Source of the DNA: Bacteroidota bacterium
Lineage (GTDB): Bacteria; Bacteroidota; Bacteroidia; Bacteroidales; SZUA-534
Reading direction: 5' to 3'
NCBI GenBank assembly: GCA_003250355.1
Contig: QKGS01000007.1
Location: 1-64,000, forward strand
Length of the DNA: 64,000 nt
A model generated the notes under the pieces. The model saw only the letters and a program-made list of their open reading frames with translations. It searched no databases and was not told where the DNA came from. Positions 477-17,487 of the stretch are shown one piece after another (position 1 is the first letter of the stretch; each line of letters opens with the position of its first letter). The position numbers and the translations under genes were made by a program.

Positions 477-881
477 ATGAAACCGACACACATTGAACAC
501 ATTGGAATAGCAGTTAAAAGTCTCGAAGAATCAATTCCTTTTTACGAAAAGGTTTTAGGTCTTGAGTGTTATTCAATAGAAGAGGTGAAAGATCAAAAAG
601 TTAAAACAGCATTTTTTAAAATTGGTGATGTTAAAATAGAGTTGTTGGAATCAACCGATCCTGAAGGACCTATTGGTAAGTTTATTGAGAAAAAAGGTCA
701 GGGTATTCATCATATTGCATATGCTGTTGATGATGTAAATGAAGCACTTAAGCAAGTTGAAGAAGCAGGTGTTCAGTTAATTGATAAGCAGGGGCGGAAA
801 GGGGCCGAAGGACTTAATATTGGTTTCTTACACCCAAAATCGACCATAGGAGTGCTTACTGAATTATGCGACAATAAATAA
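477..881 (+). CDS. mce: Methylmalonyl-CoA epimerase
   Basis: A 134-residue protein of the vicinal oxygen chelate fold. It converts (R)- to (S)-methylmalonyl-CoA in the propionate/succinate pathway. Visible family features are [20 protein letters not shown] at the N-terminus, [14 protein letters not shown] in the second half and a terminal VLTEL, which supply the metal-binding His and Glu residues. Length is normal for the family. It starts 8 bases before the carboxyltransferase gene and is surely its operon partner: the epimerase makes the isomer the decarboxylase uses. No transfer signs. Confidence 0.93.
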
Positions 882-889
882 TTAACAAT

Positions 890-2449
890 ATGGCAAATCA
901 GGATAAAATCAATGAATTAATTGAAAAACGTGCAAAAGCACGTATGGGTGGAGGTGAAAAACGGATAGAAGCCCAGCATGCCAAAGGTAAATTTACCGCT
1001 CGTGAACGTATTGAAATGTTGCTTGACGAAGGTAGTTTCGAAGAGTTTGATATGTTTGTTACTCACCGTTGTAATAATTTTGGATTAGAAAATACAAAAT
1101 TCCTTGGCGATGGTGTTGTTACCGGACATGGAACTATTGATGGTCGTGTAGTTTATGTTTTTTCGCAAGACTTTACTGTATTCGGTGGGTCGTTATCAGA
1201 GACATTTGCACAGAAAATATGCAAGGTTATGGATATGGCAATGAAGGTGGGAGCACCTGTTATTGGTATTAATGATAGTGGAGGGGCTCGTATTCAGGAG
1301 GGAGTTACCAGTTTGGCAGGTTATGCAGAGATTTTTCAACGCAATATTGAAGCCTCGGGGGTAATACCACAAATATCTGCAATATTTGGTCCTTGTGCCG
1401 GAGGTGCTGTTTACTCTCCCGCATTGACTGATTTTATCCTAATGTCAGAGAATTCAAGTTATATGTTTGTTACCGGACCTAAGGTTGTAAAAACAGTAAC
1501 CGGCGAAGATATTACGACAGAAGATCTTGGTGGAGCAAAAGTTCATGCCTCAAAATCGGGAGTTTCACATTTCCTTTCGGAAAATGAGGAGGAAGGAATT
1601 ATGATTATTCGTAAGCTCCTTTCTTATTTGCCTCAGAATAACCTTGAAGAACCTCCTGTCACTGTAAGTAGTGACCCAATTGATCGTTTAGACGAAGGTT
1701 TGAACGTGATAATACCGGAAAGTTCAAATCAACCATACGATGTGAAAGATGTTATATACTCATTGGTCGATTCTCAGGAATTTTTAGAAGTACACCGAAA
1801 TTATGCCAAAAATATTGTTGTAGGTTTTGCAAAATTCAATGGCGTACCAACAGGTATTATTGCAAATCAGCCTAATTATCTTGCCGGGGTTCTTGATATT
1901 GAAGCTTCGCGTAAAGCGGCTCGGTTTGTCCGTTTTTGTGATGCGTTTAATATTCAGATACTAACTCTTGTTGATGTTCCGGGTTTTCTGCCGGGAAGTG
2001 CTCAGGAGTATGGAGGTATTATAACACATGGAGCAAAGCTTATGTTTGCTTATGGCGAAGCTACTGTACCGAAAATTACAGTTACTCTTCGTAAATCATA
2101 TGGCGGAGCTCACGATGTAATGAGTTGTAAACAATTGCGAGGTGACCTTAATTATGCTTGGCCAACAGCCGAAATAGCAGTTATGGGAGCAGCCGGTGCA
2201 ATTGAGGTTCTTGAAGGCAGGCGACTTAGTGAAATTACCGACCCTGAAGAGCGAGCTAAATTTGTTCAGGAAAAAGAAGAAGAGTATAAAAATAAGTTTG
2301 CAAACCCATACCAGGCAGCTGCTTATGGTTATATCGACGATGTTATAGAGCCTATGAATACTCGGTTTAGAATTGTTAGGGGATTTGAAAGTTTATCAAC
2401 TAAGAAAATTAAGAATCCACCAAAGAAACATTCTAATATTCCATTATAA
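890..2449 (+). CDS. mmdA: Methylmalonyl-CoA decarboxylase carboxyltransferase (alpha) subunit
   Basis: A 519-residue biotin-dependent carboxyltransferase of the PccB/MmdA family. It moves the carboxyl group of methylmalonyl-CoA to biotin on the small carrier subunit. Both crotonase-like halves are present, with [17 protein letters not shown] in the N-terminal half and [20 protein letters not shown] plus [12 protein letters not shown] in the C-terminal half. The following genes encode OadG-like, biotin carrier and OadB-like subunits, so the context favours the Na+-pumping decarboxylase over soluble propionyl-CoA carboxylase. Without the neighbours the two could not be told apart. Confidence 0.93.
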
Positions 2450-2460
2450 ATTAAATAGTT

Positions 2461-2820
2461 ATGAGTAGTATAATATTAGGAGCAATAAGTGCAAGCGGAG
2501 GCTGGACAGTAGCTTTTGTAGGCTACGGTATAGTATTCGTTGCATTGGTATTACTGGTTTTTATTTTTAATTACTTGTCGAAGTTAATTAATTTACAAAC
2601 CCGATTGGAACTAAAGAAAAAAGGAAAGAAAATTCCTGTACACCCCGATGATTTTTCTATTGAAGGAGATGTAAATGCAGCTATTAGTATGGCATTATAC
2701 CTTTATATGAACGAAATGCACGACGATGAATCAAATGTGATTACTATTAATAGAATTACCAAGCGTTATTCGCCGTGGAGTTCTAAAATTTATAATGTAT
2801 ATAACACCCCGGTTAAATAA
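2461..2820 (+). CDS. OadG-family small membrane subunit of the sodium-pumping decarboxylase
   Basis: A 119-residue protein with one membrane segment near residues 15-40 (VAFVGYGIVFVALVLLVFIF) followed by a charged cytoplasmic tail. This is the layout of OadG/MmdD-type gamma/delta subunits, which hold the soluble alpha part to the membrane beta subunit. The tail ends in ITRITKRY-like basic sequence (ITINRITKRYSPWSSK). It lies 11 bases after mmdA and 6 before the biotin carrier. Sequence conservation in this family is poor, so the call rests on topology and position. Confidence 0.82.
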   Translation: MSSIILGAISASGGWTVAFVGYGIVFVALVLLVFIFNYLSKLINLQTRLELKKKGKKIPVHPDDFSIEGDVNAAISMALYLYMNEMHDDESNVITINRITKRYSPWSSKIYNVYNTPVK

Positions 2821-2826
2821 GTAACT

Positions 2827-3246
2827 ATGAAGAAATTTGAATTTACCATTAAGGGTCAGAAATATGGCGTTGTTATTAAAGATTTTGAAAACAATACAGC
2901 AAATATTGAGGTAAATGGTACAAGCTACGAAGTAGAAGTGCATCGTGATGTGAAGGTGTCGAAAACGCCAACCCTAATTAGAAAACCTGTGGTTAAGCAG
3001 CCGGGAGAGGGGCAGATAGCAAAGACATCAGGTGGATATAAAGTTAAAGCACCACTTCCGGGAAGTATTTTTAAGCTAAAAGTACAAGTTGGCGATACGG
3101 TTAAAAAAGGCGATGTGCTTTTAATTATGGAAGCTATGAAAATGGAGAATAATATAATATCGGAAAAAGATGGTGTTGTTAAAAATATTTTAGTTGGTGT
3201 TGGCAATGCAGTTCTTCAAGATGATGTATTAATAGAAATGGAATAA
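2827..3246 (+). CDS. mmdC: Biotin carboxyl carrier subunit of methylmalonyl-CoA decarboxylase
   Basis: A 139-residue protein with a C-terminal biotinyl domain. The biotin attachment motif MEAMKMEN is near residues 101-108, with Lys105 the acceptor. The N-terminal 45 residues form a short beta-rich domain joined by a Pro/Lys-rich linker (residues 48-65), as in other decarboxylase carriers. It carries CO2 from the carboxyltransferase to the membrane subunit. It is packed between the OadG-like and OadB-like genes (6- and 10-base gaps). Confidence 0.93.
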   Translation: MKKFEFTIKGQKYGVVIKDFENNTANIEVNGTSYEVEVHRDVKVSKTPTLIRKPVVKQPGEGQIAKTSGGYKVKAPLPGSIFKLKVQVGDTVKKGDVLLIMEAMKMENNIISEKDGVVKNILVGVGNAVLQDDVLIEME

Positions 3247-3256
3247 ATTTTCACTC

Positions 3257-4942
3257 ATGAAGTTATTGTTAAAATATAAAGCATTATTGATGTTGGCTCT
3301 TGCAGTATTGTTATTTAATAATAGTAATGCAAAGGAATTTAACACAATAGAAGAACAGGTTACTTACGGTAAATGGGTTAATTATTCCGATGGGTATATA
3401 CCTCAGGCAACTATTAATCCGGACTCAGTAAAAGACTGGTCGGAAATAAAAACTGTAAAGCGCTATAAAACTATTCAGTTTAAAACTACAGTTACACATG
3501 GTGTAGAGCACAATACATTTGTGATGGATACTGTTAAGCAACGGTATAGTGGTACTTGGAAAGTTGTTGACGGAAAAGTTGAAATGTCATTTTTTACAAA
3601 ACCGGTAGTGCATTACAGTAAAAATCTCGACCCCGATGCTTCAAATTACGAATATGCAACTACACCCGATACTGTGTATTTGCCAATAAGGTATATGGAG
3701 TTTAAAAATGGTCAGATGTATGAGGTTGGTTCAGAGGTATCGTACAAGCATATGTCAAATGCAACACAGGGATTGATAAATTTCTATGAGTTTACAGGTT
3801 TTGCAAATGCAACACGCGGCAACCTTATTATGATACTTGTAGCATTGTTGTTTATTTATTTGGCTATTCGATACGATTATGAACCACTGTTGCTTATACC
3901 TATTGGAATGGGAATAATTATTGGTAATATACCAATGTTTCAGGGGGTCGATTTTAATTTGAAGTTAGGTGTATATGAGCCTGGTAGTGTTATGAATATA
4001 CTTTATCAAGGAGTATTGCAAGGGTGGTATCCTCCATTGATATTTCTTGGTATTGGAGCTATGACCGACTTCTCTTCGTTAATATCGAGTCCGCGATTAA
4101 TGCTCTTGGGTGCGGCTGCACAAGTGGGTATATTTGCTACTTTTTTAGGTTCTTTATTGTTGGGCTTTGCCCCACCAGAGGCAGGAGCAATTGGTATTAT
4201 TGGTGGTGCCGATGGACCAACAGCAATATTTCTTTCCTCGAAGCTTGCCAATGGGGTAAATGTAATGGCTAATGGCGAGGTTGTTAAAAATTTAATTGGC
4301 CCAATTGCGATAGCTGCATATTCGTATATGGCATTGGTTCCGGTTATTCAGCCTCCAATTATTAAGCTTTTAACTACCAAAAAGGAACGTATGATAAAAA
4401 TGCGCCCTCCGCGTTCGGTTAGTAAACTTGAGAAAATACTTTTCCCAATTATTGCACTTCTAATAACAGCTTATATTGCACCAACATCGTTGCCTCTTTT
4501 AGGTATGTTGTTCTTTGGAAACCTATTGAAAGAGTGTGGTGTTACAGCTCGTTTGGCCGATACTGCCAGCAATGCTTTAATAAACACTATTAATATACTT
4601 TTAGGTATTACAGTAGGCGCATCAACACAGGCTGATGTTTTTTTAACGCCGGATTCAATTATGATATTTGGTTTAGGTGCAGCTTCGTTTATGATAGCAA
4701 CAGCCGGTGGAGTGCTTTTTGGAAAAGTTATGAATTGGCTAAGTCCTAAGAATAATCCTGTTAACCCCATGATTGGAGCTGCGGGGGTTTCGGCTGTACC
4801 CGATAGTGCCAGGGTAGTTCAGAATATGGGATTGGCCGAAGATCCAACGAACCACCTGCTGATGCATGCAATGGCTCCCAATGTATCGGGTGTTATTGGT
4901 TCTGCAGTGGGTGCAGGTATATTGTTAAGTTTTCTGATGTAG
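3257..4942 (+). CDS. mmdB: Sodium-pumping decarboxylase beta subunit with N-terminal exported extension
   Basis: A 561-residue OadB/MmdB-family membrane protein. It decarboxylates carboxybiotin and pumps Na+ out of the cell. The core begins near residue 185 and contains the conserved IIGGADGPTAIFLSSKL segment and many membrane helices. Typical OadB proteins are about 375-430 residues. Here a signal-peptide-like start (KYKALLMLALAVLLFNNSNA) is followed by about 155 residues of beta-rich, soluble-looking sequence before the first core helix, which should face the periplasm. It is the last gene of the operon, and a terminator follows at 4966. Confidence 0.92.
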   Translation: MKLLLKYKALLMLALAVLLFNNSNAKEFNTIEEQVTYGKWVNYSDGYIPQATINPDSVKDWSEIKTVKRYKTIQFKTTVTHGVEHNTFVMDTVKQRYSGTWKVVDGKVEMSFFTKPVVHYSKNLDPDASNYEYATTPDTVYLPIRYMEFKNGQMYEVGSEVSYKHMSNATQGLINFYEFTGFANATRGNLIMILVALLFIYLAIRYDYEPLLLIPIGMGIIIGNIPMFQGVDFNLKLGVYEPGSVMNILYQGVLQGWYPPLIFLGIGAMTDFSSLISSPRLMLLGAAAQVGIFATFLGSLLLGFAPPEAGAIGIIGGADGPTAIFLSSKLANGVNVMANGEVVKNLIGPIAIAAYSYMALVPVIQPPIIKLLTTKKERMIKMRPPRSVSKLEKILFPIIALLITAYIAPTSLPLLGMLFFGNLLKECGVTARLADTASNALINTINILLGITVGASTQADVFLTPDSIMIFGLGAASFMIATAGGVLFGKVMNWLSPKNNPVNPMIGAAGVSAVPDSARVVQNMGLAEDPTNHLLMHAMAPNVSGVIGSAVGAGILLSFLM

Positions 4943-7596: not shown

Positions 7597-8361
7597 TTAT
7601 TGCTTCCCAAGTACAGATAGCGATTTATTTATCCCTTTAGCAGCTTCTTGTATTTTTTCAATTAAAAATTCACCCGATTTATTTTTTTCCGATATACTGG
7701 TAAGGCTCGATATTGCTAAAACACTAAATACCCCGGTATCAATATCACCAATAGGAACGGCAATGTCGGTTACTCCCCGTGTTATTTCGCTGTTGTCGAG
7801 TTCATAACCTCTAATTTTCACTGCCGATATTCTTTTTTCTAAGTCTTCTTTTTTCTTCTCTGTCAATTCTATATAATCTTCGTCTTCTGATAGTATTTGT
7901 TCTCGGCGTTTGTCGGTTACATGAGCTAATATAACCCTGCCCGATGTTGTTTTACTTATTGGAAACAAACTACCCTCTTCTATAGATAAAGAAACAGGGC
8001 CCGGACTTTTAATTTGAGCTACTATCATTATTTTACCATGATACAAAATACTCATATGGCACGACTGTTTTGTTTCCTGCGATAATTTCTCCATATATGG
8101 CTTAGCTACACGTAATAAACCATCAATAGGGCTGTGTCGGTGCGATAAGTGATACAGTTTTAACGATAAAGAGTATTTGCCCGAAAGTGATTTTATTAAA
8201 TATCCGCGCTCTTCCAAGCAAACAAGCATTCGATATATTTCGTTAGGTGATTTCCCTAAACCTTGCGATATTTCAATTTGCGACTGAGGAATGGCAACCT
8301 CTGAAAGATATTCCATTATATCTAACCCTTTATCTAAAGCAGGTGCTAAATATTTACTCAT
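7597..8361 (-). CDS. IclR-family transcriptional regulator
   Basis: A 254-residue regulator with an N-terminal winged helix (residues about 5-70; IPQSQIEISQGLGKSPNEIYR contains the recognition helices) and a C-terminal IclR effector domain (about 80-250; TSGRVILAH, ITRGVTDIAVPI). IclR proteins usually control catabolic genes in response to a small acid or aromatic ligand. It is divergent from the GH2 gene at 8487. A perfect 7-bp inverted repeat in the shared spacer (8403-8419) is a plausible operator. Its likely targets are the enzyme genes at 8487-17487; the ligand is not visible from sequence. Confidence 0.93.
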   Translation of the reverse strand: MSKYLAPALDKGLDIMEYLSEVAIPQSQIEISQGLGKSPNEIYRMLVCLEERGYLIKSLSGKYSLSLKLYHLSHRHSPIDGLLRVAKPYMEKLSQETKQSCHMSILYHGKIMIVAQIKSPGPVSLSIEEGSLFPISKTTSGRVILAHVTDKRREQILSEDEDYIELTEKKKEDLEKRISAVKIRGYELDNSEITRGVTDIAVPIGDIDTGVFSVLAISSLTSISEKNKSGEFLIEKIQEAAKGINKSLSVLGKQ

Positions 8362-8402
8362 AGCTTTTCATTTATATATAAATATTGTAACTTCTATGTA
8401 AA

Positions 8403-8419
8403 TTATTTGAAACAAATAA
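8403..8419. promoter_or_regulatory. Perfect inverted repeat, candidate IclR operator
   Basis: TTATTTG-AAA-CAAATAA is a perfect 7-bp inverted repeat with a 3-base centre. It lies 41 bases upstream of the IclR start and 10 bases before the -33 element of the divergent GH2 promoter. The position and size fit an operator that can act on both genes. The sequence is AT-rich, so a chance palindrome cannot be excluded. Confidence 0.5.
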
Positions 8420-8429
8420 AAGGAAATAA

Positions 8430-8461
8430 TTTGGTATATTCAAATATGAATTTTATTTTTG
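8430..8461 (+). promoter_or_regulatory. Bacteroidota-type promoter of the GH2 gene
   Basis: TTTG (8430-8433), 20 bases, then TATTTTTG (8454-8461) match the Bacteroidota housekeeping promoter at both elements. The GH2 start codon follows 25 bases after the -7 element. Confidence 0.75.
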
Positions 8462-8486
8462 TATATAAATTTTAAAACAATTCAAA

Positions 8487-11042
8487 ATGCGAAGTTATTT
8501 AAGATTATTTAGAAAAGCAGCCTTGGGGATAGCCCTCGGATTTTCTACGTTTTCGCTATTCGCACAGCCTAACACGACATTTTCTCACGATAGTGTTGTT
8601 CAGGCAGTGAGAGATTTTAGCGGAATGAACTGGAAAATGAAAATGATGCGACCCGGTGAAGGTGTTAATTACGGTTTTCCGCAGATTCCGCCAGAAGACA
8701 TTGAAACTCTTGTTTGGAACAATGCAAAAGTTCCAGGTGATGTGTATACCGACCTTTGGAGAGCAGGAGCAATTGAAGATCCTTACTTTGGACGCAATAG
8801 TATAAAAGCTCAATGGGTTCAACATTATGAGTGGTGGTATTCGCTTCAGTTTCACTATCGTCAGCCAATTAAAGACGAAGTTATTGAAATAGTTTTTGAG
8901 GGTGTTGATTATAGTTGTGAAGTGTGGTTAAATGGTAAGTATTTAGGAAAGCATGAAGGTGCTTTTACTAAGTTTTCGTTCGATGTTACCAATATTATCC
9001 GTACTCATGATTGGGATTGGAGAAAGCAATCGAATATGCTTATGGTAAAACTTGATCCTCCTCCGCAAGTAAATGCTTTAGTAGCAGGAGCAAAAACGCC
9101 ATGGTTTGGTGATTATTGGAGAGATCTTATTCCTTTTGGAATATTCCGTCCTGTGAAGATGGTTACTACCGGTAAAGTTCGTTTCGACGATGTTTACGCT
9201 AATAATAAGATAAACAAAGATGGTTCAGCTGATGTAAATCTTGAGCTTACAGTTGAAAACCGTTCCGATAAAGCTCGTGAAATGACATTTACAGCTTCTC
9301 TTGAAGGGTATAACTTCGATATGGAGAAAAAGGAGGTTGAATTTAAGAAAACTGTTAAACCCGGAATTAGTAAAGTAGTAGAGACTATACATATTGATAA
9401 TCCTCAATTGTGGTGGCCGTGGGATTTAGGTAAGCCTAATTTGTATAAAACTAAGGTTTCAATGAAAGAGGGTGAAAATAATCATGATGTATACGAAACT
9501 ACGTTTGGTATTCGTGAAGTTACTTCACAATGGAATCCGGGTTTTGTAAAAGATGTTGATGTTTCGTTCCCTCGCTCTACATATATTAACGGTAAATTCC
9601 ACTTTATCCGTTCTGCTTGTTGGGGAGGTCCACCGGATATTTTTGTAGGTCGTACATCAGTTGAAGAATACAAAGAGTTAATTCGTTTGGCAAAAGAAGC
9701 TAATATGAATAACATTCGTATTTTCGGATGGCATCCGCCTGAAATACCTGAATTTTATCAGTATTGCGATGAAATGGGTATTACTATTTGGGCCGATATG
9801 ATTCCGCTTGGAACAGGTAATATACCTACCGATCGTGCAGCGTTAGGAAAAATATTCAATACCGCTGTACACGTAACAAAAGAGCGTCGTAATCACCCGT
9901 CGTTTATTCAAACCGAAGGTGGAGAAGAAATGTTACTTCGTACAAGAGATGCTCACTTTGGTCGCTCGTTCCTTGAAGAGTTAGGCGATTCTATTAAGGC
10001 TTATAATAATATTCCTTATGTTGATGATTCGCCAATGAATGACCGTTGTCATGTATCGCAAGAAGCCGGTTATAAGCCAAGAGAAGCTATTCATGCATTA
10101 CGTTATTTTTACGAAATGGGTCGTTGGTTACACGAAGACTGGATTCGTGATTTTACCGATGGATATCCTATTGTACCTGAGTATGCTATTACATCAGTTC
10201 CTTCGGTTGAAAGTTTGAAAAAATTTATACCTGAAGATGAGTTATGGCCTCCTGGATTAAGCTGGGGACACCACTGGGCAGACCTTACTCGTTTGCGTAT
10301 GCAAAATTGGGATGTGTTTGGCGATGAAATGAAAGGTTCGTTAGAGGAATTTGTTAATGCTTCGCAAGATGCTCAGGGTATTATTTTCCAAAATGGGATT
10401 GAGTTCTATCGTCGTCATAAGCCTAGTATGAGTGGTATTGCACTTTGTCACTTTATTACTTACTGGCCCGACATGAAATGGGGTATTGTTGATGCGTACC
10501 AACAACCTAAACGTTCGCATGGATTTGTAAATAAGGCGTATCAGCCATTATTGGTAAACTTCGATTTTACAAAACGTCGTTGGCATAAGGATGAGCCTTT
10601 TGTTGGAGATATATGGATAGTAAACGATTTTTATGAAACATATAATAACTGTAAGGTTTCATTTATTATAAAAGATGATAACGGAAAAGTGTTATCAAAG
10701 AAGTCGTTCGATGTAGCAACAGTTGAAGAAAATAGTGCGAAGAAGTTCTTTTCAGTAGAAGAAAAAGTACTTAAATCGGTTACTAAGAAATTCTATATTG
10801 AACTGGAATTAACAGACAAGGGAGGTAAGGTAATTTCGAAAAATGATTACTTCTTCTTAATAGGCGATCAGGCAGAGGCTACAAAATATTTCAATGAGTG
10901 GCAGGCTAAACGTATTGAAAGAGAGAATAGTAATAACCGTTCTGGATATGGTTCGTACTACCACTTCTTCGATGAGTTAATTGAGGTAGATGGTAAGAAA
11001 TACGAGAGTGATACTCAAAAGCCCAAAGCTTTTGGTTATTAA
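8487..11042 (+). CDS. Secreted GH2 beta-mannosidase-like glycoside hydrolase
   Basis: An 851-residue enzyme with a signal peptide (about residues 1-27, ending SLFAQ). The domain order is GH2 sugar-binding domain (about 60-240; FEGVDYSCEVWLNGKYLG), an immunoglobulin-like domain, a TIM barrel (about 350-660) and a C-terminal beta domain. The barrel has NNIRIFGWHPPEIPEFYQYC. The likely acid/base Glu is in QTEGGEE (Glu480 or 481) and the likely nucleophile is Glu565 in VPEYAITSVPS, where beta-mannosidases have SEYGFQSWPS. Family placement is firm. The sugar is inferred as beta-mannoside or a similar exo substrate. It is divergent from an IclR regulator. Confidence 0.85.
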   Translation: MRSYLRLFRKAALGIALGFSTFSLFAQPNTTFSHDSVVQAVRDFSGMNWKMKMMRPGEGVNYGFPQIPPEDIETLVWNNAKVPGDVYTDLWRAGAIEDPYFGRNSIKAQWVQHYEWWYSLQFHYRQPIKDEVIEIVFEGVDYSCEVWLNGKYLGKHEGAFTKFSFDVTNIIRTHDWDWRKQSNMLMVKLDPPPQVNALVAGAKTPWFGDYWRDLIPFGIFRPVKMVTTGKVRFDDVYANNKINKDGSADVNLELTVENRSDKAREMTFTASLEGYNFDMEKKEVEFKKTVKPGISKVVETIHIDNPQLWWPWDLGKPNLYKTKVSMKEGENNHDVYETTFGIREVTSQWNPGFVKDVDVSFPRSTYINGKFHFIRSACWGGPPDIFVGRTSVEEYKELIRLAKEANMNNIRIFGWHPPEIPEFYQYCDEMGITIWADMIPLGTGNIPTDRAALGKIFNTAVHVTKERRNHPSFIQTEGGEEMLLRTRDAHFGRSFLEELGDSIKAYNNIPYVDDSPMNDRCHVSQEAGYKPREAIHALRYFYEMGRWLHEDWIRDFTDGYPIVPEYAITSVPSVESLKKFIPEDELWPPGLSWGHHWADLTRLRMQNWDVFGDEMKGSLEEFVNASQDAQGIIFQNGIEFYRRHKPSMSGIALCHFITYWPDMKWGIVDAYQQPKRSHGFVNKAYQPLLVNFDFTKRRWHKDEPFVGDIWIVNDFYETYNNCKVSFIIKDDNGKVLSKKSFDVATVEENSAKKFFSVEEKVLKSVTKKFYIELELTDKGGKVISKNDYFFLIGDQAEATKYFNEWQAKRIERENSNNRSGYGSYYHFFDELIEVDGKKYESDTQKPKAFGY

Positions 11043-11254: not shown

Positions 11255-12394
11255 ATGAGTCAGGAAAGAATACATTTAAAAGGAATTACTTGGGATCACA
11301 GTCGTGGTTTTACTTCTATTGTAGCTGCTTCGCAGCGTTTCCACGAACTTAACCCAAATGTAGAAATTACTTGGGAAAAACGTTCACTTCAGGCATTTGC
11401 CGACGAGCCTATCAATGAGTTGGCAAAGCGTTATGACTTGTTAATTATAGACCACCCATGGGCAGGTTTTGCTGCGCGTACAGGTGTTATAGTAAAGCTT
11501 AGCGATTATATTTCGGAAGAGTTTTTACAAGATCAGGCAAACAACAGTGTGGGTAAATCGCACATAAGCTACTGTTTCGATGGTTATCAAAGTGCTTTGG
11601 CTATTGATGCAGCTACTCCGGTTGCAGCAAGTCGTCCTGACCTTATTTCTGATTTGCCGAAAACATGGGACGAACTTGTTGAATTTGCCAAAGGTGGTAA
11701 GGTTGCAATACCTGGTATACCTCAGGATACCCTAATGAGTTTCTATATGGTATGTTGTAATTTAGGTGAAGATGTTGCTTCAACTAAAGAGTATTTTATA
11801 TCAAAAGAAATAGGTTTAAAAGGTTTAGAATTGCTTCGTAATTTAGGACAGTATATCGATAAGGAGTGTTACGACTTTAATCCAATTAAAGTATATGAAG
11901 CTATGACACGTGGCGATAAATATGCATATTCACCATTTGCTTACGGCTATACAAACTATTCACGTAAAGGATATGCACGCAAGTTTCTTAAATTCCACGA
12001 TATGGTTGAACTTAACGGAGAGAAGTTAATTACAACATTAGGAGGTACAGGTCTTGCTATTTCAGCAGATTGTAAGCATAAAGAGATAGCAGCAAAATTT
12101 GCTGAATATACTGCTTCACCAGCAACTCAAAAGTCAGTGTTTTTTGATAATGGAGGTCAGCCGGGACACCGTCAGGCATGGTTAGATACTCATACAAACT
12201 ACATGACAACCGACTATTTTAAAGATACACTACCTGCTTTAGATAGAGCGTTTTTACGTCCTCGTTATCATGGTCATATGTTCTTTCAAGATAACTCAGG
12301 AGCCCCTATTCGTGAGTATATGATGAATGGCGGTAATCCTCAAAAGGTTCTTGATAAGTTGAATGAACTATACAAAAAATCATTAGAATTATAA
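11255..12394 (+). CDS. Solute-binding-protein homologue without signal peptide
   Basis: A 379-residue protein of the family 1 extracellular solute-binding fold (ABC transporter sugar/oligosaccharide binding type). Family-like features are the LKGITWDHSRGFTSI start, YDLLIIDHPWAGFA, and FAEYTASPATQKSVFFDNGG near residues 285-304. There is no signal peptide or lipobox: the mature-like sequence begins directly after MSQERIH. No ABC permease or ATPase gene is nearby. It sits before two CoA-transferase genes, so it may act in the cytoplasm as a ligand sensor or substrate carrier. The function is unknown and the cytoplasmic location is inferred. Confidence 0.8.
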   Translation: MSQERIHLKGITWDHSRGFTSIVAASQRFHELNPNVEITWEKRSLQAFADEPINELAKRYDLLIIDHPWAGFAARTGVIVKLSDYISEEFLQDQANNSVGKSHISYCFDGYQSALAIDAATPVAASRPDLISDLPKTWDELVEFAKGGKVAIPGIPQDTLMSFYMVCCNLGEDVASTKEYFISKEIGLKGLELLRNLGQYIDKECYDFNPIKVYEAMTRGDKYAYSPFAYGYTNYSRKGYARKFLKFHDMVELNGEKLITTLGGTGLAISADCKHKEIAAKFAEYTASPATQKSVFFDNGGQPGHRQAWLDTHTNYMTTDYFKDTLPALDRAFLRPRYHGHMFFQDNSGAPIREYMMNGGNPQKVLDKLNELYKKSLEL

Positions 12395-12400
12395 ATAACT

Positions 12401-12505
12401 AGTCCTTGGTCTTCAGTCCTCAGTCTTCAGTTTGCAGCCCGTTATTTGTAGGGGATAACTGTATAATTGAGACTGCCGACTGCTGACTGCCGACTGCTGA
12501 CTATT
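12401..12505. repeat. Spacer of degenerate CAGTC/GACTG words
   Basis: The left half repeats cttcagtc/cctcagtc/cttcag words (12409-12437). The right half repeats gactgccgactgctgactgc (12471-12503). The halves are rough inverted copies of each other and could form a long imperfect hairpin. The same words, in the same opposed arrangement, occur in the next spacer at 13655-13740. Confidence 0.7.
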
Positions 12506-12510
12506 TAATT

Positions 12511-13653
12511 ATGTTACCATTAGAAGGAATAACAGTACTGGAATTTGCACAATTTATGGCAGGTCCATCGGCCGGTTTAAAAATGGCCGACCTTGGTGCA
12601 AGAGTAATAAAGATTGAACGTCCGGGCTCGGGAGAAGCTGGTCGGAAAATTGCGCTCAAAAATATTTATATTGATGAGAGTAGTATGGTATTCCATACTG
12701 CAAATAGGAACAAACAATCATATGCTGCTGACTTAAAAGACCCCAATGACCTTGAAAAGGTTAAAAAGCTTATTGCAAAGGCTGATGTTATGACACATAA
12801 CTTTCGTCCCGGAGTAATGGAAAAAATAGGTCTTGATTATGAAGATGTAAAAAAAATTAATCCTCGTATAATTTATGGCGTTGTATCCGGTTATAGCGCT
12901 GTTGGTCCTTGGGCTACAAAACCGGGGCAAGATCTTCTAATTCAGTCGTTATCGGGTTTTGTTAATTTAACAGGAAACGAATCTGATGGACCAACAGCCA
13001 GCGGTTTGGCAACATCTGATATTTTTACAGGTGTTCACTTGGTTCAAGGAATATTAGCTTCATTAATTAAGCGTAGCAAAACAGGAGTTGGTTCAAAAAT
13101 TGAGGTTAGCCTGCTTGAGTCAACACTTGATATTCAATTCGAAGTTCTTACTACTTATCTTAACGATGGTAATAAACTGCCTCAAAGAGCAAAAAAGGGT
13201 AGTGCTCATGCGTATCTCGATGCACCTTATGGCATATACAAGACAAAAGACAGTCACATTGCAATTGCTCTTACCCCGTTAAATGAATTAGCAAAGGCTA
13301 TAGGTTTAAATTTACCCGATGAGTATAAAAACAAGGATACATGGTTCGGCAAGCGTAATGAAATTATGCAGCTTATATCACCGGTACTTGAAAAGGAAAC
13401 AACAGCACATTGGCTTGGAATATTTGAACCTCTTGATTTTAGATGTAGTGATGTGTTTACATATGAACAGCTATTTAAAACAGAAGGATTTAAAGCCATT
13501 GACATGATGCAGGAAGTTGAAACTACTGATGGGATTACAATGAAAACAACACGTTGTCCAATAAGAATTGATGGTAAAAAAATATTTAATCGAAAATCAG
13601 CTCCTAAGGCCGGTGAAAACAATGCGTTAATAGAGAAAGAATTTAATTTGTAA
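12511..13653 (+). CDS. Class III CoA-transferase (CaiB/BaiF family), first copy
   Basis: A 380-residue enzyme that should move CoA between carboxylic acids. It has the family start LEGITVLEFAQFMAGPSAG, the NRNKQSYAADLKDP segment, THNFRPGVMEKIGLDY, and KPGQDLLIQSLSG, whose Asp141 aligns with the catalytic Asp of formyl-CoA transferase. It is a clear paralogue of the next gene (13750-14904), probably from tandem duplication. Acceptor and donor acids are not visible. The spacers on both sides contain the same inverted word repeats. Confidence 0.9.
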   Translation: MLPLEGITVLEFAQFMAGPSAGLKMADLGARVIKIERPGSGEAGRKIALKNIYIDESSMVFHTANRNKQSYAADLKDPNDLEKVKKLIAKADVMTHNFRPGVMEKIGLDYEDVKKINPRIIYGVVSGYSAVGPWATKPGQDLLIQSLSGFVNLTGNESDGPTASGLATSDIFTGVHLVQGILASLIKRSKTGVGSKIEVSLLESTLDIQFEVLTTYLNDGNKLPQRAKKGSAHAYLDAPYGIYKTKDSHIAIALTPLNELAKAIGLNLPDEYKNKDTWFGKRNEIMQLISPVLEKETTAHWLGIFEPLDFRCSDVFTYEQLFKTEGFKAIDMMQEVETTDGITMKTTRCPIRIDGKKIFNRKSAPKAGENNALIEKEFNL

Positions 13654-13654
13654 T

Positions 13655-13740
13655 TCAGTCAGCAGTCAGTAGTTAATATTAGTATATGTTATAAAAGCTT
13701 ATTGTTTTATAATATTAAGAAATCTGCCGACTGAAGACTT
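13655..13740. repeat. Second spacer with opposed CAGTC/GACTG words
   Basis: cagtcagcagtcagtag lies at the left end and ctgccgactgaagact at the right end. They are imperfect inverted copies that resemble the words at 12401-12505. A short inner hairpin (ataaaa...ttttat) lies between them. Confidence 0.65.
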
Positions 13741-13749
13741 TTTAAATTT

Positions 13750-14904
13750 ATGAAAATGGAAAACAAACCATTAGAAGGAATATTGGTTATTGATTTTAGT
13801 CAATATTTATCAGCACCTTCAGCAAGTTTACGATTAGCTGACCTTGGTGCAAGGGTAATAAAAATTGAAAAGCCTCAAACAGGTGATAATTGCCGGAGTT
13901 TATATTTTTCGAATTTGGTGATGAATGGCGAGTCGTCAATGTTTCATGCTATTAACAGAAATAAACAGAGTTACTGTGCTGATTTAAAAGTTGAAGACGA
14001 CCGGAAGAAAGTATATAAGTTGATTGAAAAGGCTGATGTTGTAATGCACAATTTTCGTCCGGGGGTTGTTGAAAAATTAGGTATTGATTTTGATACCGTA
14101 AAGTCGATAAACCCGGGAATAGTATATGCCGAATTGTCGGGATACGGAAAAGAAGGGGTGTGGAAAAATAAGCCCGGACTCGATTTATTGCTTCAGTCAA
14201 TATCGGGGTTAACACAGCTTAACGGTAACGATGGAGCCGGGCCTGTACCTATAGGTTTGGCTGTTGTCGATATTTTATCGGGAGCACATTTAGCTCAGGG
14301 TATTTTATCGTGTTTGTATCGTAAAGTTACAACAGGTAAAGGTGGTAGAGTTGAAGTGAGTATGCTTGAATCGGCTTTAGAATATCAGTTTGAATCGGTA
14401 ACTTGTTTTCATCGCGATGGAGGCAAACCAACAGTTCGTCCTAAGTCGAATTCAGCTCATGCTTATTTAGGAGCTCCTTATGGAGTGTATCCTACAAAAA
14501 ATGGTCATTTGGCTTTAGCAATGGGTTCAATACCTGTATTGGGCGATTTATTGGGATGTCCTGCGTTGAAAAATTATGAAACTCCACAAAGCTGGTTCGA
14601 TAAGCGCGATGAAATTAAGGATATTCTTGCTAATCATTTGCAAACCAAGAATACTGCCGACTGGCTTGCTGTTCTTGAACCTGCCGATTTTTGGTGTGCT
14701 GAGGTTATGAATTGGAAAACATTGTTTGATAAAGAAGCTTTCAAAATATTGAATATGATTCAGGAAGTGAGTATGAGCGATGGTTACAAATTTAAAACAA
14801 CTCGTTGCCCAATTCAGGTAAATAGTGGTTGGCTAACTTCAGAAATTGGAACTCCTAAGCTTGGAGAACATACAGCTGTAATTCAAAAAGAATTTTCACT
14901 ATAG
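13750..14904 (+). CDS. Class III CoA-transferase (CaiB/BaiF family), second copy
   Basis: A 384-residue paralogue of the preceding gene, sharing the same landmarks: LEGILVIDFSQYLSAPSAS, NRNKQSYCADLK, MHNFRPGVVEKLG and KPGLDLLLQSISGL, with the likely catalytic Asp145. A second in-frame Met two codons later is an alternative start. Two adjacent paralogues may form a heteromer or act on different acids. The gene is followed by a strong terminator at 14908, so the hydratase gene downstream may have its own transcript or depend on readthrough. Confidence 0.9.
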   Translation: MKMENKPLEGILVIDFSQYLSAPSASLRLADLGARVIKIEKPQTGDNCRSLYFSNLVMNGESSMFHAINRNKQSYCADLKVEDDRKKVYKLIEKADVVMHNFRPGVVEKLGIDFDTVKSINPGIVYAELSGYGKEGVWKNKPGLDLLLQSISGLTQLNGNDGAGPVPIGLAVVDILSGAHLAQGILSCLYRKVTTGKGGRVEVSMLESALEYQFESVTCFHRDGGKPTVRPKSNSAHAYLGAPYGVYPTKNGHLALAMGSIPVLGDLLGCPALKNYETPQSWFDKRDEIKDILANHLQTKNTADWLAVLEPADFWCAEVMNWKTLFDKEAFKILNMIQEVSMSDGYKFKTTRCPIQVNSGWLTSEIGTPKLGEHTAVIQKEFSL

Positions 14905-14907
14905 TAT

Positions 14908-14942
14908 AAAAAACGAGAGAAATGAATGTCTCTCGTTTTTTT
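14908..14942 (+). terminator. Intrinsic terminator after the second CoA-transferase
   Basis: AAAAAACGAGAGA (14908-14920) pairs with TCTCTCGTTTTTTT (14929-14942). The T tract is part of the right arm, so the hairpin could work on both strands. Confidence 0.9.
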
Positions 14943-14987
14943 GTACCTAAACAGATATTTACATAAGTTAATATAACAGTAATAAAA

Positions 14988-15770
14988 ATGGAAGAATTAT
15001 CATCATTAATATTAACCAAGATAGATGGCAGCAAGGCTACAATTAGTCTGAATAGACCAAAAGCAAACAGTTATTACAAAGATTTTTTACAGTATTTGGC
15101 CGATCAAATTAATCAAGTGAGTGCTAACAGTAAGGTGAAAGTAATACTACTGAATAGTACTTCAGAGAAATTCTTTTGCGCAGGTGCCGACATAAAAATA
15201 TTTGCATCGAATACAACCGAGCAAAATGCTGAAATGGTTGTGGCTGCACGAAATGTTACTTCGGCTATGGTTAATAGTGAAAAAATAATTATAGCTGCTA
15301 TTAGTGGTCATATATTAGGTGGCGGACTTGAAATGGCTATGGCTTGCGACATACGTTTAGCTGCCGAAGGCGATTATTTGGTAGGATTACCCGAAGTAAA
15401 GCTTGGTTTAATGCCCGGCAATGGTGGAACTCCTCGTATGATTGACTTATTGGGTGCAAGTCGTGCTATGGAATTGCTTGTAACAGGTAATAATATCACT
15501 CCACAAAAAGCCTATGAATTTGGACTTTTTAACCAATTGTTCAAAGCTAATGAATTTGAAGCTAAGGTTGAAGAGTACGTAACCAATTTAGCAAATGGGG
15601 CAGGAGAAGCTATGGCTGCAATTAAAAAATATGTGCAAAACCATAAAGGTATGGATAAAGACCGAGCTTTAGATTATGAAACAGAATGTGTTCAAGCTTT
15701 ATACGATACCCACGATGCTAAGGAAGGTTTTTTAGCATTTGTTGAAAAACGTGAACCAAAATATTTGTAG
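14988..15770 (+). CDS. Enoyl-CoA hydratase/isomerase family protein
   Basis: A 260-residue crotonase-fold protein. It shows ISLNRPKANSYYKDFLQYLA at the N-terminus, FCAGADIKIF (oxyanion-hole loop 1), ISGHILGGGLEMAMACDIRL (oxyanion-hole loop 2) and PEVKLGLMPGNGGTPR, which holds the usual catalytic Glu region. It should act on a CoA thioester made by the adjacent CoA-transferases. Hydratase, isomerase and hydrolase activities cannot be separated by sequence alone. Terminators lie on both sides (14908, 15841). Confidence 0.9.
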   Translation: MEELSSLILTKIDGSKATISLNRPKANSYYKDFLQYLADQINQVSANSKVKVILLNSTSEKFFCAGADIKIFASNTTEQNAEMVVAARNVTSAMVNSEKIIIAAISGHILGGGLEMAMACDIRLAAEGDYLVGLPEVKLGLMPGNGGTPRMIDLLGASRAMELLVTGNNITPQKAYEFGLFNQLFKANEFEAKVEEYVTNLANGAGEAMAAIKKYVQNHKGMDKDRALDYETECVQALYDTHDAKEGFLAFVEKREPKYL

Positions 15771-16029: not shown

Positions 16030-17487
16030 ATGAGCAGAAATATTCAACACTACAATTGTTACATAAATGGAGAGTGGATAGGTAGTCGGAATCACGAAGT
16101 TATAGAGGTTCAAAACCCGGCCAATAATGAAGTATTTGCAACAGTTACAGCTTGTAATGCGACTGATGTTCAATATGCTCTTGCAAGTTCAGAGAAAGCA
16201 CAGCTTGGCTGGCAGCTTACTCCGGCACATAAAAGAGCCGGTTATATATATGCTATTTGCGAAAAGCTAAAAGAGAAAAAAGAGCATTTTGCAAAGCTGC
16301 TTGTTATGGAGCAGGGGAAAACATACAAAGAGGCACTTGCAGAGGTTGACGATACAATCAGATATATGACTTATGGAGCAGAGGCGGCACGAAGAATACA
16401 GGGAGCAATATTTCCGGCCGATAATGAAGATGAACAGTTGCAGATACATAAGGTTCCTTATGGGGTAACTGTTGCTTTATGTGCATTTAATTATCCATTG
16501 GCACTAATAGGTCGTAAAGTTGGCCCTGCGTTAGCTACCGGCAATACTATTATACTTAAACCTCATGAACTTACACCGGTTACAGCATCGGAATTCTGTA
16601 AACTGGTTCAGGAAGTTGGAGTACCCAATGGGGTTATTAATTTGGTGGCTACAAAGAATGCTCAGGCTGCTTCGTTGCTTGTAGAAAGCCCTATTACCCG
16701 ATTAATAAGTTTAACCGGAAGCACCAATGCCGGCAGAGCTATGTACAAAGCTACGGCAAATAATATTACCGGTCTAATTTTAGAACTAGGTGGTAAAGCA
16801 CCGCTCATAATTTGCGACGATGCCGATATTGATAAGGCAGTAGAATCGGCTGCGGTATCGCGTTTTGCAAACTGCGGACAGGTATGTATCTGTAACGAAA
16901 TGGTAATGGTAGATGAGAAAATTGCCGATGAGTTTACTGAAAAGTTAATCAAGCGTGTTAAGCAAGTTAAGGTTGGCGATCCGTTTGACCCGTTAACTAA
17001 TATGGGGCCAAATGTTAGTACTTTGGGGTTAGAGCGTGTACATAAACTTGTTCAGGAAGATATTGCCAATGGTGCTGAATTATTAGCCGGAGGTAAACGT
17101 CCCGACGGTAGAATGTTTAAAAAAGGTAATTGGTATGAGCCTACTATTTTATACAATGCTAAAAACGACCATGCAACCATGCGCGATGAACTATTTGCGC
17201 CCGTACTGCCAATTATGAAAGTATCGGGGTTTGATGAGGCTATAAGCCTAACCAATAAGCGTGAAGAAGGGTTGTCGGCATATTTGTATACCAATAATTA
17301 TAAACGACAAATGCAGGCAATTAACCTTATGCAGGTAGGAACAATTTTTATAAACAGACCAATAGTAGGTTACGTGCAGGGATACCATACCGGGCATAAA
17401 ACATCGGGTTCGGGAGGTGAAGATGGTATTTTCGGTATAGAGGGATATTTGCAAAAGCGAACTATATATCTCGATTATTCAGCTTAG
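16030..17487 (+). CDS. AldA-like NAD-dependent aldehyde dehydrogenase
   Basis: A 485-residue aldehyde dehydrogenase that oxidises an aldehyde to its acid. [18 protein letters not shown] carries the general-base Glu and [10 protein letters not shown] the catalytic Cys (Cys286). The C-terminal [20 protein letters not shown]...YLQKRTIYL pattern is close to E. coli lactaldehyde/glycolaldehyde dehydrogenase AldA rather than betaine or succinate-semialdehyde types. The acid product could feed the CoA-transferases of the same locus, but this is inference. It appears to have its own leader. Confidence 0.88.

Follow-up and report, generated by a model that had tools for sequence, protein, structure and literature searches.

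The window analysed here is a 64,000-nucleotide stretch of a Bacteroidota bacterium (positions 1 to 64,000 of contig QKGS01000007.1, assembly GCA_003250355.1). It contains a plus-strand cluster in which a homologue of the solute-binding proteins (SBPs) of ATP-binding cassette (ABC) importers, named SBP1 here, is followed by two paralogous CaiB/BaiF family III CoA-transferases, CT1 and CT2, and a crotonase (Table 1). An earlier note on this DNA had called these genes and their coordinates, and the calls were right; genes for an IclR-type regulator, a GH2-family glycoside hydrolase and an aldehyde dehydrogenase, which it had not listed, also recur in related clusters. SBP1 is proposed tentatively, at a little short of an even chance, to be a sugar-binding protein that has lost both export signal and transporter and that now cooperates, inside the cell, with a CaiB/BaiF CoA-transferase as its functional partner.

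Predicted fold and missing export signal of SBP1

Both Pfam matches of SBP1, SBP_bac_8 and SBP_bac_1, exceeded the curated cut-off. An AlphaFold2 model built on a 71-sequence alignment had a mean pLDDT of 94.9; prediction from the single sequence reached a pLDDT of 34, and the 71-row alignment was needed. The model matched trehalose/maltose-binding protein (1eu8) with a Z score of 38.0 over 368 residues, MalE3 (6dtq) with 38.0 over 363 and SmoF (7ofy) with 37.8 over 362. On the Pfam matches and a predicted fold that spans the whole chain, SBP1 is a full-length family 1 protein, as had been claimed, with the predicted two-lobed fold of a carbohydrate SBP.

The SBP1 open frame has 392 codons for a product of 379 residues. 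Because the frame opens only 13 codons upstream of the start, the window protein has no room for a signal peptide; a signal missed upstream was looked for, and the at most 13 additional N-terminal residues are not hydrophobic, which bears out the earlier statement that signal peptide and lipobox are absent. The comparison covered 131 SBP1 genes at 130 loci outside the window (L002-L108 and L154-L176), a set that leans to close relatives of the window. Of these genes 126 are distinct, five being duplicated between collections; counts of distance, orientation and invariance refer to distinct sequences, and counts by phylum and of hydropathy to all 131. The 12-residue N-terminal hydropathy of SBP1 had a maximum of 1.72 and a median of 0.58, against 2.12-3.32 in 11 secreted SBP controls; the score is a simple measure and not a trained signal-peptide predictor, with SBP1 starts taken no more than 45 residues from the motif and controls scored over all candidate starts before the match. 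By a comparable simple measure, signal peptides stand out clearly in the secreted SBPs of relatives.

Were SBP1 an ordinary importer SBP that leaves the cell by a non-classical route and works with a distant ABC transporter, it would have the complete SBP fold and Pfam match that were found. A distant cognate transporter was looked for in the genome of the window (3.70 Mb, 106 contigs, 99.98% complete) with the BPD_transp_1 profile, which gave two matches, both in loci read as Mod/Wtp-like. The first permease, read as ModB, adjoins a ModA-like binding protein and an ATPase; the second, of a similar small-anion type, adjoins an ATPase, and its contig also encodes, at a distance of about 2 kb, a binding protein of the corresponding type. 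A carbohydrate importer requires a different permease pair, as in MalFG-type systems. No carbohydrate ABC permease was found with the profile in this nearly complete genome, so that the lack of an ABC permease or ATPase near SBP1, reported in the earlier note, extends genome-wide for the carbohydrate type. The ABC importers in the clusters inspected have their own secreted SBP, and all 131 SBP1 N-termini are unlike a signal peptide by the simple measure. The importer reading was rejected as scarcely credible, since neither an export signal nor a carbohydrate ABC permease was found. By the same two observations, the earlier suggestion that SBP1 has been recruited inside the cell is well supported as a prediction from sequence.

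Across 127 distinct SBP1 sequences, the window protein included, 29 residues are identical down to 31% identity, among them R17, D61, D66, H67, S105, Y106, D118, Y232, Y235, Q292, Q302 and R335. Several invariant positions, for example D66 and R335, align with residues of trehalose/maltose-binding protein that we take to be its sugar contacts. The conserved cleft fits a common ligand, and an active site would fit too. SBP1 could accordingly be a pathway enzyme on an SBP fold, such as a dehydratase, lactonase, isomerase or decarboxylase acting on a sugar acid or acyl-CoA, with the CoA-transferase its neighbour through related steps. We regard this as unlikely, yet as deserving serious weight. 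The invariant residues, many of them polar or charged, seem to exceed what we would expect of a mere binder, and SBP1 is kept in genomes where the CoA-transferase sits elsewhere. Cytosolic enzymes on periplasmic-binding-protein folds exist, such as cyclohexadienyl dehydratase and MqnA, and SBP1 resembles these in that an SBP-type fold is put to a use other than import; we know of no full-length CUT1-type SBP among them that occurs together with a CoA-transferase. The presumed sugar-contact positions are retained, as a binder equally predicts, and we know of no catalytic motif of the SBP-fold enzymes in SBP1, for which no tool search was made; both points tell against an enzyme.

SBP1 thus resembles the CUT1 carbohydrate SBPs (1eu8, 6dtq and 7ofy) in its whole fold and in its Pfam families SBP_bac_1 and SBP_bac_8. 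It differs from them in lacking both signal peptide and lipobox, in a sequence identity of 17-19%, in the 29 residues kept throughout its family and in a gene neighbourhood that includes CoA-transferases; its genome yielded no carbohydrate ABC permease.

Table 1 Genes of the SBP1 cluster in the window
Feature	Position	Strand	Assignment and remarks
IclR-type regulator	7597..8361	-	Divergent; Pfam IclR_C 2.4e-28
GH2-family glycoside hydrolase	8487..11042	+	Pfam Glyco_hydro_2_N2 2.5e-28; recurrent in type A neighbourhoods
SBP1	11255..12394	+	379 aa; Pfam SBP_bac_8 E 1.3e-12, SBP_bac_1 6.6e-12; motifs TWDHSRG, DHP, RPR in window protein
CT1, CaiB/BaiF family III CoA-transferase	12511..13653	+	Pfam CoA_transf_3 2.9e-95; aligned catalytic Asp D170 kept
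CT2, paralogous CaiB/BaiF CoA-transferase	13750..14904	+	Pfam CoA_transf_3 2.8e-92; aligned catalytic Asp D174 kept
Crotonase / enoyl-CoA hydratase family protein	14988..15770	+	Pfam ECH_1 5.4e-52, 177 bits vs cut-off 27
Aldehyde dehydrogenase	16030..17487	+	Pfam Aldedh 3.5e-145; downstream type A member, after the crotonase in related loci

Pairing of SBP1 with CoA-transferases in other genomes

SBP1 was found at E<=1e-20 in 16 of 296 Bacteroidota genomes, the window's own among them, and at E<=1e-25 in 18 of 398 Pseudomonadota genomes. Two of 299 Bacillota genomes matched, and one of these matches (G931) is a secreted SBP and not SBP1. The species genomes of GTDB hold at least 592 confirmed SBP1 relatives; the best 80 of these come from seven named phyla (Bacteroidota 39, Pseudomonadota 14, Chloroflexota 13, Bacillota 9, Planctomycetota 2, Acidobacteriota 1, Verrucomicrobiota 1, with 1 unassigned). 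Plasmids add Actinomycetota; 145 plasmid records match SBP1 at E<=1e-5, including those of Sinorhizobium, Azospirillum and Streptomyces. A divergent SBP1 subfamily with the motif LAWDHRRCWGPLD was observed beside IclR in three genomes of the Pseudomonadota sample (L173, L174 and L175; wider, L178-L180).

Measured between open frames, a CoA-transferase lies no more than 200 nt from SBP1 in 104 of the 126 distinct genes, within 1.5 kb in 3 more and within 7 kb in a further 9; in 10 none was scored in the fetched stretch. Among these 10, the genomes of L012 and of the Chloroflexota loci L072, L075, L081 and L082 have a gene of CT2 type, 56-59% identical, at another place; on the short contigs L078 and L085 the CoA-transferase is cut by the end; and L173-L175 have a same-strand CoA-transferase and crotonase at a distance of about 6.3 kb. 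Where genomes had not been selected for similarity, an SBP1 gene adjoins a CoA-transferase in 15 of 16 cases in Bacteroidota and in 18 of 22 in Pseudomonadota, where one more lies at 560 nt and three about 6.3 kb off. The conservation of the pair across phyla, which the earlier note had left to a genome search, is therefore borne out by the close spacing of most distinct genes. A CoA-transferase is present in the locus of 116 distinct SBP1 genes. It is 3' of SBP1 in 89 cases; 21 others, including many from Alphaproteobacteria, have it 5' on the same strand, and the last 6 have it on the opposite strand. The two genes overlap by 4 nt in nine annotated records.

The association was also found in the reverse direction. 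Of 198 Bacteroidota genomes, 11 have relatives of CT1 at E<=1e-60, and every one of these 11 also has SBP1. Plasmid records matching CT2 at the same threshold numbered 149, and six divergent ones among the 60 listed were examined; the CoA-transferases of Jannaschia, Ponticoccus, Croceibacterium and Variovorax plasmids, 36-50% identical to CT2, have SBP1 in the same cluster. Together, the conserved neighbourhood and this reverse co-occurrence make the functional link between SBP1 and the CoA-transferases, also put forward earlier, well supported at the level of gene content and order. Mere co-regulation within one sugar catabolic regulon, with a minor or vestigial role for SBP1, would leave room for the separation of SBP1 from the CoA-transferase seen in Chloroflexota and in G286. 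It accounts poorly for a near-strict two-way co-occurrence in the sampled genomes and for high conservation across several phyla, and is held to be decidedly improbable.

CT1 and CT2 are the sole two CoA_transf_3 matches in the window's genome. They share with family III enzymes such as formyl-CoA transferase, YfdE and succinate-hydroxymethylglutarate CoA-transferase the CoA_transf_3 domain and an aligned Asp, which we take from formyl-CoA transferase to be the catalytic one and which is present in 189 of 189 CoA-transferases (184 distinct). Unlike the named enzymes, they are two paralogues encoded next to an SBP homologue and fall far under the NCBIfam cut-offs: against the succinate-glutarate, formyl-CoA:oxalate, carnitine and mesaconate models the best score was 221.9 bits, with a cut-off of 750. 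The nearest solved chains to CT2 include 10uh, 4hl6 and 9br6, and a chain named as benzylsuccinate CoA-transferase, 9fn0_B, is among its structure matches. Benzylsuccinate CoA-transferase BbsEF is a two-subunit enzyme of two adjacent CaiB/BaiF paralogues. The paired paralogues of the window resemble it, as does a planctomycete locus (L091, positions 8046-10460) in which CT1 and CT2 are fused in one 805-codon open frame next to SBP1; this natural fusion suggests that CT1 and CT2 may form a heteromer. BbsEF differs in its aromatic, unrelated substrate, and we know of no SBP partner for it. In the Chloroflexota genomes searched, relatives found with CT2 as query occur singly.

Cluster types, a second SBP family and possible substrates

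Two main arrangements were distinguished. In type A, that of the window, the order is SBP1-CT1-CT2-crotonase-aldehyde dehydrogenase, with IclR and often GH2; type B has, in this order, SBP1, two CoA-transferases, a second SBP (SBP2), a Gfo/Idh protein and a MaoC hydratase, with a RhaT-like or FucP-type symporter. Among 70 loci of at least 16 kb, a CoA-transferase was present in 68, the other two having it elsewhere in the genome or beyond the contig, and IclR in 42. Of these loci, 38 have only MaoC, 24 have only crotonase and 3 have both; no hydratase was scored in 5, one of which, L074, does have a MaoC below the open reading frame (ORF) cut-off. Exactly one kind of hydratase is thus present in 62 of 70, and the replacement of one type by the other argues that an enoyl-CoA hydratase or dehydratase step belongs to the pathway.

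In the window, the divergent IclR-type gene is the probable regulator of the cluster. The nearest solved chain to the crotonase is 2ppy, an enoyl-CoA hydratase (1.4e-51), and its sequence, read by eye, has a Glu in GGLEMAM and another in LPEVKLG, candidates for the two catalytic glutamates of the family. The aldehyde dehydrogenase scored 461 bits against its best NCBIfam model, PRK10090, under the cut-off of 500, and hence is not a confirmed member. GH2 belongs to protein cluster 9, whose members come from 20 loci, including that of the window.

SBP2, the other SBP that has no signal peptide (Pfam SBP_bac_1 7.8e-25; maximum N-terminal hydropathy 1.57, n=35), is not part of the window cluster. 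In 34 of 35 loci its open frame is no more than about 210 nt from that of a Gfo/Idh gene; these loci belong to Bacteroidota, Bacillota, Chloroflexota and Planctomycetota, and the remaining one, L069 of Acidobacteriota, has no Gfo/Idh in its stretch. The pattern of signal-less SBPs is wider than the earlier note supposed, with a second family beside Gfo/Idh. One plasmid match to CT2 (35%) came from the archaeon Halostagnicola, where an SBP2-type protein was found and no SBP1 within the 13 kb fetched. The SBP2-type protein of Halostagnicola larsenii (L201, positions 1885-3402) has no visible signal peptide and stands with Gfo/Idh, MaoC, rhamnose mutarotase, an AMP-binding protein and a CoA-transferase.

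The neighbours of SBP1 in relatives include an L-fucono-lactonase-like amidohydrolase (far under the equivalog cut-off), rhaM, an MR_MLE dehydratase, a DHDPS-type aldolase, a FucP that scores over its cut-off and an alpha-L-rhamnosidase. Marine loci of types A and B carry GH16, sulfatase and weakly agarase-like genes, and L032, L035 and L046 a P450-ferredoxin-reductase set, a complement similar to that for agar and porphyran use. In S. meliloti the CoA-transferase-SBP1 pair is separated by 9-11 kb of unrelated genes from a region with an amidohydrolase, an ABC importer, rhaM, Gfo/Idh, a dehydratase, FAH and an L-fuconate dehydratase. According to passages of one paper, the binding proteins for fucose and rhamnose in this species are SMc02774 and SMc02324 (PMC3454389). 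From the neighbouring fucose, rhamnose and marine polysaccharide genes, our best guess for the substrate is a 6-deoxy- or L-hexose acid. By ORF reading, no lactonase, fuconate dehydratase or hydrolase was recognised in the window cluster, and the genome beyond it was not searched for them.

The non-phosphorylative pathways for L-fucose and L-rhamnose consist of a dehydrogenase, a lactonase, a dehydratase, a second dehydrogenase and a hydrolase. The loci of SBP1 relatives are similar in holding the fucono-lactonase-like amidohydrolase, MR_MLE dehydratase, rhaM, SDR, FAH, L-fuconate dehydratase and FucP- or RhaT-like symporters. To our knowledge those pathways have no CoA-transferase, MaoC or crotonase, and no cytosolic SBP. 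In L062, L065, L066, L074 and L101, SBP1 clusters were observed beside an OiaX-like RuBisCO-like protein, an OiaK-like kinase and an Asp/Glu racemase-family gene; these resemble genes of D-apionate catabolism, and the representatives scanned score under the equivalog cut-offs.

Possible role of SBP1 and its relation to known systems

We infer the ligand, the physical contact, the order of reactions and the substrate sugar as follows. A deoxy- or L-hexose would enter the cell through a symporter or through a TRAP or ABC importer, and its oxidation and the opening of the lactone would then yield a sugar acid. The cleft of SBP1 would take up this acid, or a later one, and pass it to the CoA-transferase; the resulting acyl-CoA would be dehydrated or cleaved by the crotonase in type A, as in the window, or by the MaoC hydratase in type B, and the aldehyde product oxidised by the aldehyde dehydrogenase. 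In type B, cytosolic SBP2 may play the same role for the Gfo/Idh dehydrogenase. The more specific proposal is that cytoplasmic SBPs are substrate-delivery subunits docked on soluble enzymes, SBP1 on the CaiB/BaiF CoA-transferase and SBP2 on Gfo/Idh, and that many bacterial phyla use them in an undescribed CoA-dependent route by which 6-deoxy- or L-hexose acids are handled, a haloarchaeon having the SBP2 form of the cluster. This we consider possible but doubtful.

Mirror-tree correlations over all available loci (numbers in brackets) were, for SBP1, 0.836 with CT1 (87), 0.698 with CT2 (96), 0.722 with IclR (59), 0.792 with the crotonase (32), 0.752 with SBP2 (35), 0.630 with Gfo (51) and 0.393 with MaoC (55). 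On shared loci, CT2 ranked above Gfo (0.855 vs 0.631, 50) and above MaoC (0.539 vs 0.362, 49).

Several findings weigh against a partnership of SBP1 with the CoA-transferase. On 50 shared loci SBP1 tracks IclR (r 0.749) above CT2 (0.492), and the mirror-tree evidence, being mixed, does not single out the CoA-transferase as the partner of SBP1. All 13 Chloroflexota loci have no CoA-transferase within 200 nt, and in 5 of them none was scored in the fetched stretch, so that tight co-translation of the pair is not universal. A CT2 relative on a Thioclava plasmid (36% identity) has neither SBP1 nor SBP2 within its 13 kb. No frame fusing SBP1 to a CoA-transferase was found in L001-L114 and L154-L177, though CT1 and CT2 are fused in L091. 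Family III CoA-transferases elsewhere function without a binding protein, and nothing shows a need for SBP1 in those studied here.

The same correlation with IclR, together with the 42 of 70 loci that contain this regulator, would suit a cytosolic buffer or sensor that has no contact with the CoA-transferase and either sequesters the imported sugar or the acid or signals how much of it is present to the divergent IclR. SBP2, too, is signal-less where a symporter gene replaces the ABC importer. By the same scan, however, IclR is absent from the remaining 28 loci, nearly all of the 70 have a CoA-transferase, and LacI- or LysR-type regulators stand in some loci instead; a buffer or sensor is judged improbable.

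No published account in which a CoA-transferase or Gfo/Idh enzyme has a cytosolic SBP as partner was found in the open-access literature, outside which most subscription papers lie. The absence of any description there is why the system is taken as new, though every part is a known family, and it agrees with the earlier statement that no defined function was known for the combination. The passages seen of PMC9007349, PMC3454389 and PMC8407117 do not describe the SBP1-CoA-transferase pair.

SBPs are routinely annotated as extracellular parts of importers, and the annotated relatives of SBP1 carry such labels, which probably mislead in hundreds of genomes. If cytosolic SBPs do present substrates to enzymes, one of the largest protein families of bacteria would gain a new role, substrate channelling would have a further possible mechanism, and the finding would point to a branch of CoA-dependent sugar catabolism in marine degraders of agar and fucoidan, soil Bacteroidota, rhizobia and others. 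The pair occurs in tractable organisms, Sinorhizobium and Zobellia among them, in which its role is directly testable.

Two further features of the window were observed. The gaps between SBP1 and CT1 (12395-12510) and between CT1 and CT2 (13654-13749) hold short GACTGC(C/T)GACTG repeats; the window has 6 matches at no more than one mismatch, 5 of them in these two gaps, against 0.15 expected. A 17-base form occurs at five further sites elsewhere in the genome, and the element is a small dispersed repeat. Beside the cluster, positions 477-4942 probably form an operon for a propionyl/methylmalonyl-CoA decarboxylase: by ORF reading, they encode a methylmalonyl-CoA epimerase, a carboxyltransferase, a biotin carrier and a sodium-pump subunit similar to OadB.

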